In this document: positions 3,317 to 42,313 of the stretch, piece by piece | Layout of the letters: every line of letters starts with the position of its first letter | How positions within the stretch are numbered: position 1 is the stretch's first letter | Assembly (NCBI GenBank): GCA_016865505.2 | Contig: AP025252.1 | Coordinates: forward strand, 2,914,001-2,978,000 | Source of the DNA: Bryobacterales bacterium F-183 | Lineage (GTDB): Bacteria > Acidobacteriota > Terriglobia > Bryobacterales > Bryobacteraceae | Length of the DNA: 64,000 nucleotides | Direction: 5' to 3' | Notes under the pieces: generated by a model | What the model saw: the letters and a program-made list of their open reading frames with translations, nothing else | Told to the model about the DNA's origin: nothing | Database searches by the model: none | Made by a program: the position numbers and the translations under genes

Positions 3317-3874
3317 ATGAAGATCGCCATCGCCGGTTCCGGCAACATCGGCAAAACCCTCGCCCGCCACTGGCAGGCCGCCGGCCTCGACGTCCAGTTC
3401 ACCGGCCGCGACCGTATCCTCGAACTTGCATCCGCCTCCGATGTCCTTGTCCTCAGCGTGCCCTGGGAGGCGGCTGCCGATGTCCTTTCCAAGGCCGGCG
3501 ACCTCACCGGCAAGATCATTATCGACTGCACCAACCCGGTACTTCCCGCTCTCGAAGGACTCTCGGTCACCGGTCATGACTCGGCCGGCGAACAGATCCA
3601 GCGCCTCGCTCCCAATGCCCATGTCGTCAAGTGCTTCAATACCTTGGGATGGGCCATGATCGGACCCGGCGCCGACGGCTTCTACTGTGGCGACGATGCC
3701 GAGGCCAAGCAGAAGGTGGCCACCCTTGTCGCCGCCGCTGGCATGCGCCCGATCGATGCCGGACCCATCCGTAACGCGCGCTATCTCGAAGCGATGGCCA
3801 TGTTGTGGATCGATCTCGCTATCAAGCGCGGCCGTGGCGCGACGTTCACCTTCCGGCTGCAGGACGCTAGCTAG
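3317..3874 (+). CDS. NADP-dependent oxidoreductase, F420-reductase-like fold
   Basis: A 185-residue Rossmann protein starting MKIAIAGSGNIGKTLARHW, with the GxGNxG nucleotide motif, VLSVPWEAAADVL and IIDCTNPVLP. This is the coenzyme F420:NADP oxidoreductase-like family (Pfam F420_oxidored); most bacterial members are NADPH-dependent dehydrogenases or quinone-type reductases of unknown substrate and no F420 use is implied. ATG at 3317 was preferred because the motif begins at once; ATG at 3311 is equally possible. It is transcribed divergently from the HxlR regulator. The stop TAG interlocks with the TAG of the converging protease gene in the sequence CTAG. Confidence 0.85.
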   Translation: MKIAIAGSGNIGKTLARHWQAAGLDVQFTGRDRILELASASDVLVLSVPWEAAADVLSKAGDLTGKIIIDCTNPVLPALEGLSVTGHDSAGEQIQRLAPNAHVVKCFNTLGWAMIGPGADGFYCGDDAEAKQKVATLVAAAGMRPIDAGPIRNARYLEAMAMLWIDLAIKRGRGATFTFRLQDAS

Positions 3875-34587: not shown

Positions 34588-35610
34588 TTAGGCTACCGCC
34601 GCAGCCACCAGATCGCCCATCGACTGCGTGTTCAACGAACCGCCCATGTCGCGAGTGCGATTGGCAGGATCCGCAAACACCTTCGCCACCGCAGCCTCAA
34701 TTCGCCGCGCCGATGCCGAATCGCCCAGCCAGTCGAGCATCATCGCCGCCGACAAGATGGTCGCCACCGGATTCGCGATCCCTTTGCCCGCAATATCCGG
34801 CGCCGACCCATGCGACGGCTGAAACACCGCGTATTTCGGCCCAATATCGCCGCTCGGCGCCATCCCCATGCCGCCAATCAAGCCCGCTGCAAGATCGGAG
34901 ATGATGTCGCCAAACATGTTCTCCGTCACCACCACGTCAAACGTCTGCGGCCTCTGCACCAGGAACAACGACATCGCATCGACGTACACGCGCTCAGTCT
35001 CGACATCCGGGTACTCCTGCGCGATCTCGTCAAAAATCCCCCGGAAATACGCCATCGACGGCAGCACGTTGGCCTTGTCCACCAACGTCACCTTCTTCCG
35101 CCGCTTCCGTGCAAGATCGAATGAGGACCGGAACAACCGTTCGCTCCCGGCGCGCGAAATCCGCATCGTATCCAGAGCCTCAGGCAAGTCCGTCGTGTAC
35201 TGATGCCCGCGCTTCCAGAACAATCCTTCGGTGCTCTCCCGCACGATGACGAAATCAATCGCCCCAGGATTCTTGAGCGGCCCATCGGAAGGATGCTGCA
35301 ATTTGATGGGCCGCAGCCCGCAGTACAAATCGAGCTTCTCGCGGATGTCGATCTGCGGCGTCATCTCCTTGCCGCTCGGCCATCGCACCGAAGGCATGCC
35401 CATCGCCCCCAGCAAGATTGCCTGATGCTTCTGAATCCCCAGCATCGTCGGCTCGGGCAAAGGATCGCCGCTACGCAAAAACTCCGCAGCCCCCGCAGGA
35501 TACTCGGTGAACGCAAAGGACACTCCAGGCAGCGCCCGCAGTACCTTCACCGTCTCCGCAACAACGTCCACTCCAATGCCGTCACCCGGCAACAACGCGA
35601 TATCGAACAC
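34588..35610 (-). CDS. Isocitrate/isopropylmalate dehydrogenase family enzyme
   Basis: A 340-residue NAD-linked beta-decarboxylating dehydrogenase. It starts FDIALLPGDGIGVDVVAE, has the substrate-binding ENFDIREKLDLYCGLRP-type region (here QIDIREKLDLYCGLRP), VIVRESTEGLFW, and NMFGDIISDLAAGLIGGMGMAPSGDIG with GSAPDIAGKGIANPVA. The REST/NMFGDI pattern fits LeuB or tartrate dehydrogenase-like members; LeuB normally has REL rather than REST, so the substrate is uncertain and homoisocitrate or tartrate dehydrogenase is possible. The GTG start is 5 bases after the glycosyltransferase gene stop, so it lies in the galU-glycosyltransferase-cyd run of genes. Confidence 0.86.
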   Translation of the reverse strand: MFDIALLPGDGIGVDVVAETVKVLRALPGVSFAFTEYPAGAAEFLRSGDPLPEPTMLGIQKHQAILLGAMGMPSVRWPSGKEMTPQIDIREKLDLYCGLRPIKLQHPSDGPLKNPGAIDFVIVRESTEGLFWKRGHQYTTDLPEALDTMRISRAGSERLFRSSFDLARKRRKKVTLVDKANVLPSMAYFRGIFDEIAQEYPDVETERVYVDAMSLFLVQRPQTFDVVVTENMFGDIISDLAAGLIGGMGMAPSGDIGPKYAVFQPSHGSAPDIAGKGIANPVATILSAAMMLDWLGDSASARRIEAAVAKVFADPANRTRDMGGSLNTQSMGDLVAAAVA

Positions 35611-35614
35611 CTCA

Positions 35615-36895
35615 TCATTTTACGCGTCGATACAGGACGGTGAATTTGGTACGTGCAAACTCCTCATAGCCGTCCTGCCGGAACGCCAACGCCGGATTCA
35701 ACAACCCCAACCCATCCGCGACATAATCGGCCGCAATTACCGACCGACGCCCCTCTGTCGACGGCTTGCTCGACACCAGATGCCGGTCCGCCAGCACACC
35801 ATTTACGGGCTGCGAATCCAGATACGGCGCGCCCAGCTTCATCCGCGTCAGTATCAATAAGTCCGGCCTGTACCCCCACACAAACAAGGTCGCCTGGCGA
35901 TCTGTCAGTTTCGCCGCCGCGGCCACGCTGTCTTCATACAACGCCAACTGATTCGCAGGCGGCGACACCCGTCCAAACCGCACCACTGGAATCAACAGCA
36001 GCGCGACGATCACGTACCGCACCCAACTCTTTGACAGCGACACGCCGCGCGCTGCCACCACAGCCACCAGCGGCAACAGTTGAAAGTAGTATCGGGGAAA
36101 GAAGCGCAACCCAAGCACGACCGCGACAGCGTTGATCGCAATCGGCACCAACCAGCGAGGCTCGCGCGCCACAATCGCCCCCACCACCAACGCCGCATGA
36201 AACCAGACCCACGCCGCCGTCTGCTTCCAGCCGTTGATGCCCTCCGGCGGATCTGCCGAGTACATGCGTCCCCACACGATCACCTGCTCATAAAACCCCT
36301 GTGACCAGTACGGCGCCACCATTGCCAAAGCCGCTACCGCTGCCGACACAGCCAGCACCCAGGACCTTGACCACACCACCAACGCCAACGCCGCAAACAC
36401 AGCTTTGGGATTGATCCAGAACGCCACCCCACACGCGACGCCAGCCCACACATAGCGTCGCGACGCCGCCAGATACAGGGCCAGTAACTGCACCGGAACC
36501 ATCAACAAGTCCGGCGCAATCGCCATCACCGCCGCAGGATGATCGAAGGCAAGAAACAGCGCGACAAACGCCGCTGCCCAAAGCGCCGCGACTTCGTCGT
36601 CCCAAATCCGCCGCGCCGCCAAAAAGGCCAGCAATGCGGATAGGCAGACAAACAACGCCCCCATCAACCGCAGAGGGACCCCGGTTTGCGCCCCAAACAG
36701 CCTGTAAAAGTACACCGCACCCGGCGGTTTATCGAACCAGAAGTCCTGGTAAATCGCCAGCCCGTAGTCGGACATCTGGATTGCGGCGGCAGCAGGATAC
36801 GCCTCCTCAATCCACACCACATCCTTATGGCTCAGCCGCGAGGCCAACGCCAGAATCAGGATCGCGGCCGCGACAGCGAGCCTCAGCGACAGCAT
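35615..36895 (-). CDS. Glycosyltransferase family 39-like membrane protein (ArnT/PMT_2 fold)
   Basis: A 426-residue integral membrane protein with about ten hydrophobic helices. A first-loop acidic pair (VVWIEEAYPAAAAIQMSDYG) and the motif YQDFWFDKPPGAVYFYRLFG are those of lipid-linked sugar transferases (PMT_2 fold). It probably moves a sugar from a polyprenyl carrier to a surface acceptor such as lipid A or a protein. ATG at 36895 abuts the galU stop (TAGATG), so it forms an operon with galU and the two-component genes further upstream. That makes a LPS-modification role plausible, but this is inference. Confidence 0.82.
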   Translation of the reverse strand: MLSLRLAVAAAILILALASRLSHKDVVWIEEAYPAAAAIQMSDYGLAIYQDFWFDKPPGAVYFYRLFGAQTGVPLRLMGALFVCLSALLAFLAARRIWDDEVAALWAAAFVALFLAFDHPAAVMAIAPDLLMVPVQLLALYLAASRRYVWAGVACGVAFWINPKAVFAALALVVWSRSWVLAVSAAVAALAMVAPYWSQGFYEQVIVWGRMYSADPPEGINGWKQTAAWVWFHAALVVGAIVAREPRWLVPIAINAVAVVLGLRFFPRYYFQLLPLVAVVAARGVSLSKSWVRYVIVALLLIPVVRFGRVSPPANQLALYEDSVAAAAKLTDRQATLFVWGYRPDLLILTRMKLGAPYLDSQPVNGVLADRHLVSSKPSTEGRRSVIAADYVADGLGLLNPALAFRQDGYEEFARTKFTVLYRRVK

Positions 36896-37774
36896 CTATT
36901 TCAGCATCTGCTTCAACCGCTCGCGGAACTCCGCGCCGTATTGCGGGTCCGCCAACGCGAACTCCACAAACGTCTCGAAGTAGCTCGGAAAATTGCCGAT
37001 GTCGTACCGCTTCTCGCCCGCTGGAATCTTCACCGCCAGTACGCGCTTGCCCTCTTCGCAAAGCCGCTGAATGGCGTCCGTCAACTGGATCTCGCCCTTC
37101 TTATCCGGCTTCACGCCCTTGATCATGTCGAAGATAATCGGCGAAAACACATACCGCGCCGCGATCGCATAATTGCTCGGCGCCTCTTCTGGCTTCGGCT
37201 TCTCCACCATCCGGACCACCCGCATGATGTCGCCGTCCATATCGGTCGGGTCGATCACGCCGTAATGCATCGTCTCTTCGCGAGGCACCTCTTCGACGGC
37301 CACCACAGCGCTCGCGCCGCGCTCTTCAAACAGCGCCACCATCTTTGCCAGCGTCTTCGAGTTCGCGTTCAAGCCCAGGATGGAATCGCCCAACGCGACC
37401 GCAAACGGCTGCTCTCCGGCAAAGTTCTCACCGCACAGAATGGCATCGCCAAGACCCTTCTGTTCGCGCTGGCGCGTGTAGTAATACTGTGCGCCCATCT
37501 GCTCAAAGTCCAACTCCGCCAGCAGATCTTCCTTGCGCGTACGCTCCAGCATCCGGTTCAACTCCGGATCCAGATCGAAATGATTCTCAATCGAGTTCTT
37601 GCCGCGACCCGTCACAAACAGGATTTGGCTCAAGCCATTGGCGCTCAACTCCTCGGCCACATACTGGACGATCGGTTTACGCGCTACCGGCAACATCTCT
37701 TTGGGTTGACTCTTCGTAGCGGGAAGAAGCCTCGTGCCGAAGCCGGCCACGGGTACGATTGCAGAACGAATCAC
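36896..37774 (-). CDS. galU: UTP-glucose-1-phosphate uridylyltransferase
   Basis: A 292-residue nucleotidyltransferase making UDP-glucose from UTP and glucose-1-phosphate in the cytoplasm. The start VPVAGFGTRLLPATKSQPKEMLPV is the nucleotide-binding signature, followed by TGRGKNSIENHFD, REQKGLGDAILC and VEKPKPEEAPSNYAIAARY. Length and motifs are typical. The start is GTG at 37774, 5 bases downstream of the histidine kinase gene stop. It precedes the GT39-like gene directly. Confidence 0.96.
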   Translation of the reverse strand: MIRSAIVPVAGFGTRLLPATKSQPKEMLPVARKPIVQYVAEELSANGLSQILFVTGRGKNSIENHFDLDPELNRMLERTRKEDLLAELDFEQMGAQYYYTRQREQKGLGDAILCGENFAGEQPFAVALGDSILGLNANSKTLAKMVALFEERGASAVVAVEEVPREETMHYGVIDPTDMDGDIMRVVRMVEKPKPEEAPSNYAIAARYVFSPIIFDMIKGVKPDKKGEIQLTDAIQRLCEEGKRVLAVKIPAGEKRYDIGNFPSYFETFVEFALADPQYGAEFRERLKQMLK

Positions 37775-37779
37775 AGGTT

Positions 37780-38754
37780 CTAGGATAACCGTCCGTCAAT
37801 AGGCAACCGCAACAACGCGCGAACCCCGCCAGTACTACTGCTCCGCAACTCGACGCTCCCGCCGTACACCTCGGCCAAGTCCCGTACGATCGCCAAACCC
37901 AGCCCGGACCCCGGTGCCGTCTCATCCGCCCGTACGCCACGCGCGAGCACCGCTTCCCGCATCGCATCCGCGATCCCCGGCCCATCATCGTCCACCACAA
38001 CCGCCCCATCCACAAAGCCAACCGTCACCTCTGCGCGACCCCACTTGCACGCGTTCTCCATCAGGTTGCCTAGCATCTCTTCCAGGTCTTCCCGCTGCAC
38101 CCGTACCTGCAGGTCCTCCGGCACGTCCACGGTCACTCGTACCGCCCGCTCGGCATACAGCTTGGTCAAGGTACGAGCCAACCCCTGCGCACACTCGGCG
38201 ACCGGGCATCGAGCATTGCCCGACGCCCCCGATGCCGAAGCCCGCGCCCGCGCCAGATGATAGTCAATCTGCCGCGTCATCCGATCCACCTGCTGCTGGA
38301 TGCTCGCCGCGATCTCCATCTGCCCCGCGGCCTCCGCGCGCTCCGCTTCCTGACGCAACAACGCCAGCGGCGTCTTCAGCCCATGCGCCAAGTCCCCCGC
38401 CGTAGCGATCGCCCGCTGTACAGCCTTTTCGCGATCCCGCAGCAGCGTATTCAAATCATCGATCAGCGGCTGCACCTCATCCGGATACCGCCCGTCCACT
38501 TGATGCACTTCGCCATCGCGAACCGCCGACAACAGCGCACGCAGCTTACGAAACGGCTGCAGGCTCAACCAGGCCACCGCCACCCCGGCCAGCATCACAA
38601 GCCCTGCGATCAACCAGACGCCCGCCGTCTCACCGCGCCGGAACCGGGGCATGACATGCATTAGCATCATCACGCCAAGATGCATGGCCAGCAGCATCCC
38701 GCCGGTCCACAGCACCGACGCGACAATCAGTCGCGACCTCAACGATCGCAACAC
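37780..38754 (-). CDS. Sensor histidine kinase (PhoQ/QseC-like)
   Basis: A 324-residue membrane kinase. It has two transmembrane helices (residues 10-33 and 45-64) with almost no periplasmic loop between them, a HAMP-like linker, the phosphoacceptor His124 in DLAHGLKTPL, and the ATP-binding N, G1 and G2 boxes (NLMENACKWG, DDDGPGIAD, GSGLGLAIV). The short extracytoplasmic loop suggests that it senses membrane state or a membrane partner. The start is GTG at 38754 and overlaps the response regulator by 16 bases. Kinase and regulator share one promoter beyond 39407. Confidence 0.93.
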   Translation of the reverse strand: MLRSLRSRLIVASVLWTGGMLLAMHLGVMMLMHVMPRFRRGETAGVWLIAGLVMLAGVAVAWLSLQPFRKLRALLSAVRDGEVHQVDGRYPDEVQPLIDDLNTLLRDREKAVQRAIATAGDLAHGLKTPLALLRQEAERAEAAGQMEIAASIQQQVDRMTRQIDYHLARARASASGASGNARCPVAECAQGLARTLTKLYAERAVRVTVDVPEDLQVRVQREDLEEMLGNLMENACKWGRAEVTVGFVDGAVVVDDDGPGIADAMREAVLARGVRADETAPGSGLGLAIVRDLAEVYGGSVELRSSSTGGVRALLRLPIDGRLS

Positions 38755-39407
38755 AGCCTATACCCCAACCCGCGCAACGTCTCAATCACCGGTACACCCA
38801 GCTTGCGCCGCAGCCTTCCGATAAACACCTCCACCGTATTTGAATCGCGATCCGCGTCCTGCGCATAGATATGTTCGGAAAGCTCAGTGCGCGACACCAC
38901 CTTGCCCTGCCGGTGCATCAGGTACAGCAGCACGCGGAACTCATGGCTCGTCAGCCGTACCGGTTCGCCCCGCACCAGTACACGCGCCGTTGCCGGATCC
39001 ATCACCACCTCACCGCAACGCAGTTCCGGCTGCGCGAACCCGCTCGCCCTCCGCAGCAGCGCCCGTACCCGCGCCAGCAGTTCCTCCATGCGGAACGGCT
39101 TCGCGACATAGTCATCGGCCCCACCGTCGATGCCTTGCACTTTTTCGTGCCAACTGCCGCGCGCCGTCAGAATCAGCACCGGAACCGCAATCCCGGACCC
39201 TCGCCAGTTGCGCAACAAGGTCAGCCCGTCGACCTTCGGCAACCCCAAATCCAACACAATCAGGTCGTACCGCTCCGTGTGGACCAAAAAGTCCGCCTGC
39301 TCGCCGTCCGCCGCACAATCCACCGCGTACCCGCCGTCTTCCAGGGCCTTGGCCAACTGGGCCGCTAACCGAGCCTCATCCTCCGCAACCAGTATTCGCA
39401 ATGCCAC
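38739..39407 (-). CDS. OmpR/PhoP-family response regulator
   Basis: A 222-residue regulator. Receiver: acidic pair (AEDEAR), phospho-acceptor Asp53 (VLDLGLPKVDG), Thr in LTARGS and Lys in VAKPF. The C-terminal winged helix reads VRLTSHEFRVLLYLMHRQGKVVSRTELSEHIY and ends RLRRKLGVPVIETLRGLGYRL. The start is GTG at 39407. Immediately upstream lie four half-sites at 11-base spacing (39426-39464), so autoregulation is very likely. It heads an apparent operon with the sensor kinase, galU and a GT39-like gene. Confidence 0.95.
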   Translation of the reverse strand: MALRILVAEDEARLAAQLAKALEDGGYAVDCAADGEQADFLVHTERYDLIVLDLGLPKVDGLTLLRNWRGSGIAVPVLILTARGSWHEKVQGIDGGADDYVAKPFRMEELLARVRALLRRASGFAQPELRCGEVVMDPATARVLVRGEPVRLTSHEFRVLLYLMHRQGKVVSRTELSEHIYAQDADRDSNTVEVFIGRLRRKLGVPVIETLRGLGYRLCCDR

Positions 39408-39425
39408 ATTGTATAGCTCACCTGC

Positions 39426-39464
39426 CTGAACCCCACATGAACAACCCGTTCAGCCTCCGTTCAG
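39426..39464. promoter_or_regulatory. Four-half-site operator for the two-component regulator
   Basis: CTGAAC (39426), ATGAAC (39437), GTTCAG (39448) and GTTCAG (39459) begin exactly 11 bases apart, the last two being inverted relative to the first two. The whole is a 39-base imperfect palindrome between the response regulator (start 39407) and the methyltransferase gene (start 39490). Two direct repeats at 11-base spacing is the classical OmpR-family site; here two face each other. Confidence 0.7.
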
Positions 39465-39489
39465 GCCCACCGTGTCAAACTGCCATCCG

Positions 39490-40242
39490 ATGCAAAGCTC
39501 CATCGACTACGGCTACCCCTGGTGGCTCTCTTACGGACACCTTGTCGTCTTCTTTCCGGCCCTCGGCGCCGCCGCGCTGACCTACGGCAAACGACGCTGG
39601 CTCTTCATCCTTGCCCTCACCTTTACGATCTGGTCCGCCGCCGCCTTCTGCGTGATGCGCTTCGTCATCAACGTCAATGGCGAACCCGAACTCCCGACAC
39701 AGGCCTTCCTCCGCAGCGGCACCGGTCGCGTACTCGACCTTGGAGCAGGCACCGGTCGCTCCGCCATCATGGTGCTCAAGGCCCGACCCCAAGCCACCCT
39801 CGTTGCCTCAGACCAGTTCGGCGATTCCTTTGATCACCACTTTGGACACACGGACACGCCTCAGTTGCCCATCGCAAACAACCTCAAGGCCGCCGGCGTC
39901 GACACCCGAGCCACCATCGCCACCGCCGACATGCGTAAGCTACCCTTCGAACCCGCTTCGTTCGACGCCGTCGTCAGTGCGTATGCCATCGACCATCTCA
40001 ATCGCCAAGGCAGCATCCAAGCCCTCGCGGAGGCCCATCGTGTACTCAAGCCCAACGGCGACCTCCTCCTCATGCTGGTGGAAAATGACGGCTGGGCCCG
40101 CTTCGCCTTTGGACCCGCGCTCTCACACGGCGGCACCCGAGGCGCGACCTGGTGGCGGGACCGCATCCGCGACTCCGGCTTCAACCTAGTCGAAGAAGGC
40201 TACAAGCCGCTCACTCTTTACCTGCTCGCCCATAAGAAATGA
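39490..40242 (+). CDS. Membrane-anchored class I SAM-dependent methyltransferase
   Basis: A 250-residue protein. Two hydrophobic helices (about residues 10-30 and 36-58) are followed by a Rossmann methyltransferase: VLDLGAGTGRSAIMVL (SAM motif I), VASDQFG, ATADMRKLPF and DAVVSAYAIDHL. The acceptor is unknown; a membrane lipid, quinone or peptide is likely. I chose ATG at 39490; a GTG six codons upstream is in frame. The gene is divergent from the two-component system, with the four-half-site operator between, so it is a probable target of that regulator. Confidence 0.86.
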   Translation: MQSSIDYGYPWWLSYGHLVVFFPALGAAALTYGKRRWLFILALTFTIWSAAAFCVMRFVINVNGEPELPTQAFLRSGTGRVLDLGAGTGRSAIMVLKARPQATLVASDQFGDSFDHHFGHTDTPQLPIANNLKAAGVDTRATIATADMRKLPFEPASFDAVVSAYAIDHLNRQGSIQALAEAHRVLKPNGDLLLMLVENDGWARFAFGPALSHGGTRGATWWRDRIRDSGFNLVEEGYKPLTLYLLAHKK

Positions 40243-40273: not shown

Positions 40274-42313
40274 ATGAGCAGCAGCGAACAGAAACCCTCC
40301 TCATACAAGCCGTTCGTACCCGAATCGATGCAGATGACGGAGTTCACGATGCGGGCCGTCGTCCTAGGACTCGTCCTCACCGTCGTGCTCGGCGCCGCCA
40401 ATGCGTACCTGGGTCTTCGCGCCGGCATCACCATTGCCGCCACCTACCCGGCAGCCGTCATCGGCATGGCCGTACTTCGCATCTGGCGCGGGTCCATCCT
40501 CGAAGAAAACATCTGCCGTACCGCCGGTTCCATTGGCGAATCCGTCGCCGCAGGCGCGATCTTCACGCTTCCAGCCTTCGTCCTTACCAAGGCGTGGCCA
40601 TCCTTCGGGTTCGGCGACGCCTACCTCAAAGCCACCTCGCTCATGATGGTCGGCTCCATCGTCGGTGTACTCTTCGTCTCGCTCATTCGCCGCGGCATGG
40701 TCGAGGACCCCGAACTGCCATTCCCCGAATCCGTTGCCGCATCGGAAGTCCACAAGGCCGGCGCCCGCGGTGCACAGGCCGTAAAATTCCTCTTCTACAA
40801 CATCATCATCGGCGGCGTCGTCTACCTTCTGGGCAAGTTCCGCCTCTTCGCCCTCGAACACACCTTTGTCGACATCCCCATCGGCGCTGCAGACAGCAAG
40901 GTTCGCCTCAGCGGTAGCGACCCCAACGTCGCCGCCAGCGTCGGAGGCTTCACCGCGATCCCCGCGCCCGACGTCAGCCCCGCCTACATGGGCGTCGGCT
41001 ATATCATCGGACCCCGCCTCGCCGCCCTCCAGTTCTCTGGCGGCGTCCTCGCCTGGTGCGTCCTCGTACCTTTGTTCGTTTACTTCCTCGGCAAGGACAT
41101 CAGCCGCTTCTTCCCCGCCGGCACCAACACCACGGACTGGACCTCGCTCGCCTCCGCCGTCTGGCGCTACATCATCCGCCCGGTCGCAGTAGGCGGCATG
41201 CTCGTCGGCGCCGCCACGACCCTTTTCCGCATGCGCAAGAGCCTCGTCGCCGGACTCAAGCGCGCCATCGACGAAGTCCGCAGCCAAGGCCCCGATCCCG
41301 CCACCTTGGGACGTACCGAAAAGTACATGAGCTCCAAGACCGTACTCGCGCTGATCGGTGTGATGTTCCTCGCCATGATCGCGCTGTATGTCTATCTGTC
41401 CGGCAACCTGGTAGCGGGCGTCGTCGCCGCCCTGGTGATGCTCATCGTGGGCTTTATCTTCGCCGCGATCTCCGGCAGCCTGGTCGGCTTCATTGGCTCT
41501 TCCAACAACCCCATCTCCGGTCTCACGATCTCAACCCTAATCATCGCCGGACTCCTCATGGTCGCTCTCGGCGCCACCGGACCCTCCGGCGTCGCTGTCG
41601 TACTCGGCGTCGCTGCTGTCGTCTGCGTCTCCTCGGCCGTCGCCGGCGAACTCCTGCAGGACTTCAAAGTCGGCTACATCCTCGGCGGCACGCCGCGCAC
41701 CATTCAAATCGTGGAATTGATCGCTGTCGTCCTCGCCAGCCTCGTCATGTACTTCCCGCTGTTGCTCCTGCATGAAGGCAACATCCGCGCCGGCGGCATC
41801 GGCTTTGGCGACCGGGAACTCTCCGCTCCCCAGGCCGGCCTCATGGCGATGCTCGCCCAAGGCATCGTCGGTGGCGAGATGGCGTGGCCGCTAGTGATCT
41901 GCGGGATGTTCTTCGGCCTCACTCTGGTGATGGCCAACGTCAAGAGCCCGATGCTCGTTTCGGTCGGCATGTACCTGCCATTCGCCACCACCGCAGCGAT
42001 CATGATCGGCGGCATCATCCGCTGGTTCGCCGATGGCGTGGCGGAACGAAAGGGCTTCAACGATGCCCAAAAGGCTCGTGTCGAAAACGCCGGGGTGCTT
42101 ACAGCGTCCGGACTGATCGCTGGCGAGGCCATGGTAGGGTTGGTTTGGGCAGGACTGCAATTTGCCCCCAAATCCTGGATTCCTGATTTCGGGATGGAAA
42201 GCTACGTTGTCGGTTCGCTGTTCATCGGAGCGCTGGCTTTGGTGATGATCATCATGCCGCTTTCCAATGCAGGAAGTCCCGACGAACCTGCTCCACCAGC
42301 CGCGATGATGTGA
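40274..42313 (+). CDS. OPT family oligopeptide transporter
   Basis: A 679-residue permease with about 14-16 hydrophobic helices. The start PFVPESMQMTEFTMRAVVLGLVLTVVLGAANAYLGLRAG and the segments AAGAIFTLPAF, PFPESVAASEVHKAG, and GVGYIIGPRLAALQFSGG match bacterial OPT proteins of the oligopeptide subgroup. It is a proton-coupled importer of small peptides or, less likely, metal chelates. ATG at 40274 follows the methyltransferase by 31 bases. tRNA-Gln begins 28 bases after its stop. Confidence 0.95.
   Translation: MSSSEQKPSSYKPFVPESMQMTEFTMRAVVLGLVLTVVLGAANAYLGLRAGITIAATYPAAVIGMAVLRIWRGSILEENICRTAGSIGESVAAGAIFTLPAFVLTKAWPSFGFGDAYLKATSLMMVGSIVGVLFVSLIRRGMVEDPELPFPESVAASEVHKAGARGAQAVKFLFYNIIIGGVVYLLGKFRLFALEHTFVDIPIGAADSKVRLSGSDPNVAASVGGFTAIPAPDVSPAYMGVGYIIGPRLAALQFSGGVLAWCVLVPLFVYFLGKDISRFFPAGTNTTDWTSLASAVWRYIIRPVAVGGMLVGAATTLFRMRKSLVAGLKRAIDEVRSQGPDPATLGRTEKYMSSKTVLALIGVMFLAMIALYVYLSGNLVAGVVAALVMLIVGFIFAAISGSLVGFIGSSNNPISGLTISTLIIAGLLMVALGATGPSGVAVVLGVAAVVCVSSAVAGELLQDFKVGYILGGTPRTIQIVELIAVVLASLVMYFPLLLLHEGNIRAGGIGFGDRELSAPQAGLMAMLAQGIVGGEMAWPLVICGMFFGLTLVMANVKSPMLVSVGMYLPFATTAAIMIGGIIRWFADGVAERKGFNDAQKARVENAGVLTASGLIAGEAMVGLVWAGLQFAPKSWIPDFGMESYVVGSLFIGALALVMIIMPLSNAGSPDEPAPPAAMM

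Follow-up and report, generated by a model that had tools for sequence, protein, structure and literature searches.

We describe a 39-base array in Bryobacterales bacterium F-183 that is very probably the operator of the PhoP/FeuP-like OmpR-family response regulator encoded beside it, built as two fused class II activator promoters through which one signal would act on both sides. The array lies in a window of 64,000 nucleotides (the whole stretch of DNA that was analysed), between the regulator gene on the minus strand and a methyltransferase gene on the plus strand. The same letters and geometry stand upstream of related regulators in Acidobacteriota and Proteobacteria, while the gene on the far side changes.

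Four half-sites between two divergent genes

The features of the region, in window coordinates, are the following:

37780–38754, minus strand: histidine kinase (Pfam HisKA and HATPase_c; a relative in 78 of 80 related loci)
38739–39401, minus strand: response regulator, receiver plus winged helix (Pfam Response_reg and Trans_reg_C)
39408–39415, minus strand: -10-like element of the regulator operon, read from the sequence as TATACA (39415–39410) or TACAAT (39413–39408)
39426–39464, no strand: predicted four-half-site operator of two outward direct repeats, all gaps 5 bases (from its letters, shuffles and conservation at 62 of 81 regulator loci)
39426–39431, minus strand: half-site GTTCAG, promoter-proximal, regulator side (sequence)
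39437–39442, minus strand: half-site GTTCAT, inner, regulator side (sequence)
39448–39453, plus strand: half-site GTTCAG, inner, divergent side (sequence)
39459–39464, plus strand: half-site GTTCAG, promoter-proximal, divergent side (sequence)
39476–39481, plus strand: -10-like element CAAACT of the divergent gene (A/T at this offset in 48 of 49 arrays)
39490–40242, plus strand: methyltransferase with a hydrophobic N-terminal part, the putative divergent target (Pfam Methyltransf_25/11)
40274–42313, plus strand: OPT-family transporter (Pfam OPT), 31 bases after the methyltransferase

The initial annotation had listed half-sites CTGAAC, ATGAAC, GTTCAG and GTTCAG at these four places with an 11-base spacing, and the letters read exactly so: all three start-to-start steps are 11 bases, and 5 bases separate every two neighbouring half-sites, those at the centre included. 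Its description of the pairs as facing does not hold. With GTTCAG drawn as an arrow the order is left-left-right-right, so that the pairs stand back to back, each pointing toward its own promoter.

The 39-base pattern occurs at one place in the 6.28-Mb genome and, with up to 3 mismatches, matches only its own site in the window (mean 0.00 in 100 dinucleotide shuffles). A chance repeat is ruled out by this single genome place, the shuffles, backward-pattern controls and the conservation described below. From its position we also reject a transcribed hairpin or terminator, as the predicted transcription starts would flank the array on the outside.

Alignment and promoter position put the probable start of the regulator at TTG (39401–39399) rather than at the GTG at 39407 of the open-reading-frame list, and the methyltransferase probably starts at ATG 39490, not at the GTG at 39472. 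Judging by the spacing, the OPT transporter is possibly co-transcribed with the methyltransferase from the divergent promoter. On the minus strand (34588–39401), the regulator and kinase genes run nearly gapless into GalU-like, PMT_2-like glycosyltransferase and dehydrogenase-like genes, the glycosyltransferase scoring below its Pfam cut-off. Neither these three genes nor the OPT transporter have a relative in the 80 related loci, which reach up to about 3 kb on each side of the regulator, and our case does not build on them; it is as if envelope-sugar genes had joined the regulator–kinase operon in the window.

Conservation of the array and its link to the regulator

Both the receiver and the Trans_reg_C models score above their cut-offs in the regulator, which places it in the OmpR/PhoB family. 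None of the 25 NCBIfam models listed of 97, named equivalogs included, reaches its cut-off (PmrA 225 of 330, TctD 210 of 337, PhoP 195 of 336, QseB 190 of 345), and identity is 63.5–75.9% to ten sampled relatives and 40.2–42.5% to E. coli QseB, BasR and PhoP. A script found the recognition helix R-[DE]-S-N-T-[VIL]-E-V-F in all 80 readable proteins of 81. It looks closer to that of PhoP (RESHTIDVL) than to those of QseB or BasR, in line with the array word GTTCA against the PhoP word GTTTA. In the regulator tree, 53 acidobacterial-type rows form one group (SH-aLRT 98), and 37 of 80 inner branches fall below 80%.

From a protein search with the regulator we kept the best 80 of 525 related stretches (62–77% identity), giving 81 loci with the window, and searched 650 bases upstream of each. 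The initial annotation had named a lack of conservation in related genomes as one thing that would refute it, and the comparison did not refute it: TGAAC-N6-TGAAC-N5/6-GTTCA-N6-GTTCA precedes 62 of the 81 regulators, in Acidobacteriota and in Proteobacteria. Many of these loci come from metagenome-assembled genomes, and related genomes do not count as independent events. The centre gap is 5 bases in 59 loci and 6 in 3; the regulator-facing pair stands alone in two acidobacterial loci (L007, L010), and 17 loci have no array, comprising 15 from Stappiaceae/Paracoccaceae that keep the regulator-facing pair and two (L018, L031) without even that, so that this pair is kept in 79 of 81. At L031 the upstream neighbour is co-directional with the regulator. 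Four metagenome-assembled genomes labelled Cyanobacteria, Eisenbacteria or Acidimicrobiia (L027, L032, L043, L044) carry an acidobacterial-type regulator and array, their phylum labels being at odds with their place in the tree; they may be mislabelled bins or cases of transfer.

Within 300 bases upstream, the core array with a 5-base centre occurs with at most 3 mismatches in 45 of 80 loci, and 2 of 1,404 other windows of the same loci reach 3 mismatches, none doing better. L071 and L078 each have one further array with 3 mismatches elsewhere, and these may be the two control windows. A whole-locus scan places the array of many proteobacterial loci roughly 350–500 bases upstream, with a small gene, PepSY-like by our reading, between it and the regulator. 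PepSY genes beside two-component systems are reported to be widespread, and the Vibrio DbfQRS system to show signs of positive autoregulation (PMC12714742; here and below, published systems are quoted from the available portions of the reports).

Searches that used the pattern in place of a protein query led back to the regulator in Acidobacteriota. Of 396 sampled genomes of this phylum, 16 have the array with up to 2 mismatches (backward pattern, 1 of 396); among 47 sampled genomes of the window's class it occurs in one, the window's own. Fourteen of the 16 arrays adjoin the regulator, one further genome has it beside a second array, and the remaining one (L171) has an ABC operon near its array and no regulator in 5.5 kb. 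The array is present in 23 of the 24 proteobacterial genomes behind the regulator loci (backward control, 0 of 24). In a sample of 299 genomes from the phylum to which an Azospirillum belongs, 17 have it at 1 mismatch, that genome counted (control, 0 of 299); most of these arrays lie away from the regulator, which adjoins the array in 2 of the 16 loci newly retrieved.

Some of these distant arrays have recurring neighbours. At seven proteobacterial loci (L159–L165) the array lies near a gene for a small secreted-looking protein (no Pfam match in the two examples scanned), with no relative of the window's regulator within 1.5 kb, and may be a target of a FeuP-like paralog. Roseibium-type arrays (L136, L137, L138, L144) stand between genes for a small basic secreted-looking protein and a small heat-shock-like protein, both named by reading.

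Since so many proteobacterial arrays are away from the regulator, and binding by the regulator is a prediction, another DNA-binding protein might use the array. We regard this as highly improbable: array and regulator are found side by side in both phyla amid changing neighbours, all but one of the acidobacterial genomes found without a protein query have an array next to the regulator, and 11-base direct repeats are the usual OmpR-family site. The comparison thus sides with the initial annotation in assigning the sites, each pair a direct repeat with an 11-base step, to the adjacent OmpR-family regulator.

Geometry, -10-like elements and related operators

Anchoring on the regulator-facing pair and allowing 2 mismatches, we found the opposed pair in 61 loci. 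The centre gap is 5 bases in 58 of them and 6 in the other 3, the range from 0 to 60 being otherwise empty; with a control word it is empty throughout. This histogram rules out free placement of two boxes. Because the linker letters between half-sites are little conserved and the spacing to the regulator-side -10 varies, the fixed centre looks like constraint, not inertia.

The divergent promoter is as regular as the centre. Among 49 acidobacterial-type arrays, 48 have xAnnnT at 13–18 bases past the last half-site, with A at +14 and T at +18 after the last GTTCA, and every other offset scores at most 8 of 49. The same A/T test gives no peak on the regulator side (largest, 6 of 49), where 43 of 49 arrays have their best -10 match 12–14 bases beyond the GTTCA core (12 in 10, 13 in 14, 14 in 19), a figure for which the best match was chosen within a range with ties going toward 13. 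On the regulator side most elements read TATAA followed by one variable base. Their better match to consensus than on the divergent side suggests that the sensor system has basal expression and that its target is more strictly dependent. At E. coli phoP, CATAAT, which we take to be the working -10, stands at +13 to +18 past the GTTTA pair, the same offset as the array's divergent element.

In its sequence the array thus has the class II PhoP-type layout: an 11-base direct repeat at a fixed distance from a -10, in activating orientation. A PhoP box of Salmonella turned round no longer activates phoP or rstA (PMC3335776), and for this reason each pair would work toward its own side only. Because 61 opposed pairs share a centre gap of 5 or 6 and the divergent -10 has the offset seen at phoP, we read the array as a back-to-back pair of class II activator promoters. 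Bound regulator might instead block RNA polymerase on one or both sides, given that the half-sites overlap the -35 regions and that repression is the anticipated effect of Salmonella PhoP boxes placed on the -10 or downstream of it (PMC3335776). Here, however, the pairs lie upstream of the -10 at the E. coli phoP spacing, and the divergent -10 is weak at an invariant offset, as expected of activator-dependent promoters, so that repression seems distinctly improbable.

The -10 lies 5–10 bases from the regulator start in 29 of 49 arrays and, in the window, 8 bases from the methyltransferase start; this puts the predicted transcription starts on the start codons or a few bases away, so that the mRNAs of both sides look leaderless. 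A published prediction of leaderless genes exists for Acidobacteria (PMC3160421). The regulator start codons of the 49 loci (TTG 22, GTG 15, ATG 12) are odd for leaderless mRNAs, and, since a leaderless start other than AUG is described as inefficient in E. coli (PMC3616915), they weaken this reading.

FeuP and PhoP are among the closest described systems. For FeuP of Sinorhizobium meliloti, also an OmpR-type two-component regulator, a motif search gave the candidate TTCA-N7-TTCA upstream of 12 genes (PMC3616915), which is the word and step of the array's GTTCA-N6-GTTCA pair and is present in the window array. That report, in the portion available, describes a single candidate pair and no fused opposed one. 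A FeuN-like or PepSY-like gene precedes the regulator in our Proteobacteria loci but not in those of Acidobacteriota, and in the window the small periplasmic modulator gene of the FeuP operon has no counterpart, the regulator following the array directly. The PhoP boxes of E. coli and Salmonella share with the array the 11-base direct repeat, orientation-dependent class II activation, positive autoregulation and a similar recognition helix; they differ in the word (GTTTA against GTTCA) and in the single box at phoP. Salmonella architecture V has opposed PhoP boxes 30–58 bases from the -10, which do not form a fused divergent unit (PMC3335776).

E. coli qseB resembles the window in that the regulator gene is divergent from its neighbour and has an 11-base-step pair before a -10-like element, but there is one pair, CTTAAC-N5-CTTAAG, and no opposed pair above shuffles. 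As a second four-site case it was rejected, with one pair at 3727–3743 of its locus and a best self-similar four-site score of 22, within the 16 to 25 of 200 shuffles. That one pair of direct repeats is usual for the family, as the initial annotation supposed, fits both E. coli operators inspected (phoP and qseB). BqsR/CarR of Pseudomonas aeruginosa binds pentamer-N6-pentamer sites with the proximal pentamer over the -35 and with clusters of half-sites, but its word is TTAAG, not the array's GTTCA at equal spacing, and the overlapping clusters are described as runs of repeats rather than opposed pairs at a fixed centre (PMC4682146). The SARPs of Streptomyces, OtcR among them, have an OmpR-like DNA-binding domain and, in divergent regions, 11-base direct repeats upstream of the -10, with a BTAD domain and, in the text available, no fixed fused array (PMC4393881); the window's regulator has a receiver and winged helix only, with no BTAD domain after an OmpR-like one. 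AgrR of Cupriavidus metallidurans, an OmpR-family regulator with mixed inverted and direct half-sites and probable class II activation with autoregulation, has as its core a 6-4-6 inverted repeat of ATTACA (PMC7380067); its site, ATKACA-N4-TGTMAT in the available portion, differs from the array in word and gap.

Single pairs, changing targets and the proposed switch

AgrR, which binds extra direct half-sites beside its inverted repeat (PMC7380067), offers a model in which the inner TGAAC-N5-GTTCA would be the core, under a symmetrical dimer, with accessory outer half-sites. The 18 Stappiaceae-type loci (in L055–L080) bear on this, being apparently three-half-site operators in which the inner opposed half-site is often kept and the outer lost: with at most 1 mismatch, all 18 have the regulator-facing pair, 10 have the inner opposed half-site and 2 have the outer one, and 29 of 1,152 control positions match. 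A core that is the inverted repeat would explain why the inner site outlasts the outer, but the direct pair is kept in 79 of 81 loci, also where the inner opposed site has 2 mismatches (5 of 18) or at least 4 (3 of 18), and both pairs have a -10-like element at class II distance; we find this model improbable. Opposed-pair decay is not simply due to the lack of a divergent gene, because 7 of the 18 loci have a divergent DUF1194-type gene (one scanned) and their pair is mostly decayed; 5 have a co-directional gene, and the other 6 were left unassigned. That a third half-site survives is a hint of contact between the two halves, though in species that are closely related.

The initial annotation's genome search for a regulon came back all but empty: in the window's genome, an exact pair with TAnnnT at the right distance was found at the array's regulator side and nowhere else, and no large regulon was found there. 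Allowing one mismatch raises the count to 72 pair places, the backward control giving 34. Thirty of these loci were inspected, 28 of them outside the array, and two (L093, L109) lie in no open reading frame of at least 80 amino acids and have A/T at the -10-like offset, an unproven lead. A cluster of four similar GTTCGGCAG/GTTCAG-type pair matches with similar flanks within 1.4 kb (G000:C1, 1790570–1791979; L082, L098–L100) is a local repeat that has nothing to do with promoters. Across 15 array-bearing acidobacterial genomes, a pair with a loose -10 occurs at 12 places against 6 in the control, giving no clear sign of a wider regulon. The 24 proteobacterial genomes have 46 such places against 5. 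In Azospirillum griseum (L172–L174), exact single pairs with -10-like elements precede a cytochrome b561-like gene, a ccmC-like cluster and a cation-efflux-like gene (names by reading), which suggests a metal, heme or redox regulon. As these single pairs precede other genes, one pair is probably enough for a one-way promoter.

It is possible, if somewhat doubtful, that the array is just two such independent one-way boxes packed together by chance, with no dimer contact and no joint unit, as the stand-alone Azospirillum pairs and the lone regulator-facing pairs of L007 and L010 would allow. Against this, the centre gap is 5 or 6 in 61 of 61 opposed pairs despite little-conserved linkers and a varying regulator-side -10 spacing, and the inner opposed half-site survives in the Stappiaceae-type loci far above its control positions.

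On the genes across the array, the initial annotation was right in part. Each side has a -10-like element where one would be expected, which makes both the two-component operon and the methyltransferase likely targets, but the methyltransferase is one of several unrelated divergent genes. Gene neighbours were called by a script from open reading frames and codon composition, and one representative per cluster of divergent genes was scanned. A divergent methyltransferase is present in 16 of 80 loci besides the window, with the array in 16 of 16; a divergent ABC ATPase cluster has it in 12 of 12, a MacB/FtsX-type permease cluster in 7 of 8, and a family with no Pfam match, secreted by reading, in 5 of 5. 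In Proteobacteria the divergent genes include another small protein with no Pfam match (four Azospirillum loci), PepSY_TM reductases (two Zavarzinia loci) and others. From these sequences, the divergent genes are unrelated between clades, and the operator appears to outlive its target.

In the reading we favour, a fusion of two class II activator promoters about a constant centre, the phosphorylated regulator would dimerise and place its DNA-binding domains head to tail on one pair, as reported for PmrA (PMC4660055); head-to-tail sites are described as typical of OmpR-family factors (PMC8041468). Each outward direct repeat would hold one such dimer about one DNA turn from its own side's -10, where a regulator subunit would meet sigma at the -35, giving two such complexes back to back. 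One signal would then turn on both the divergent target gene and, by positive autoregulation, the regulator–kinase operon. With its constant 5-base centre the array would act as one unit of four sites, probably with dimer–dimer contact.

Within a limited search of open-access literature, as far as its texts were available, no two-component promoter came to light in which two outward pairs are joined at a set distance, and among the matches listed, no operator matched GTTCAG/CTGAAC with a response regulator by title or abstract. The array word offers a search word for targets of PhoP/FeuP-like systems in soil bacteria, on which we met no experimental work. Bacterial operators are generally thought to turn over quickly; this 39-base one keeps its word, orientation, step, centre gap and -10 distance across two phyla while its target changes between unrelated families. 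More tentatively, and on balance we think it unlikely, the array may be an ancient self-contained two-way switch in which a regulator tetramer, formed by two head-to-tail dimers that meet over the 5-base centre, loads two RNA polymerases back to back, a portable socket of Acidobacteriota and Proteobacteria whose divergent gene has been replaced repeatedly. If this were true, the socket would put a newly placed gene under the same signal. If the proposal works, the array would be a clean system for head-to-head cooperation of OmpR-family dimers, for back-to-back recruitment of polymerase and for the entry of genes into a regulon.
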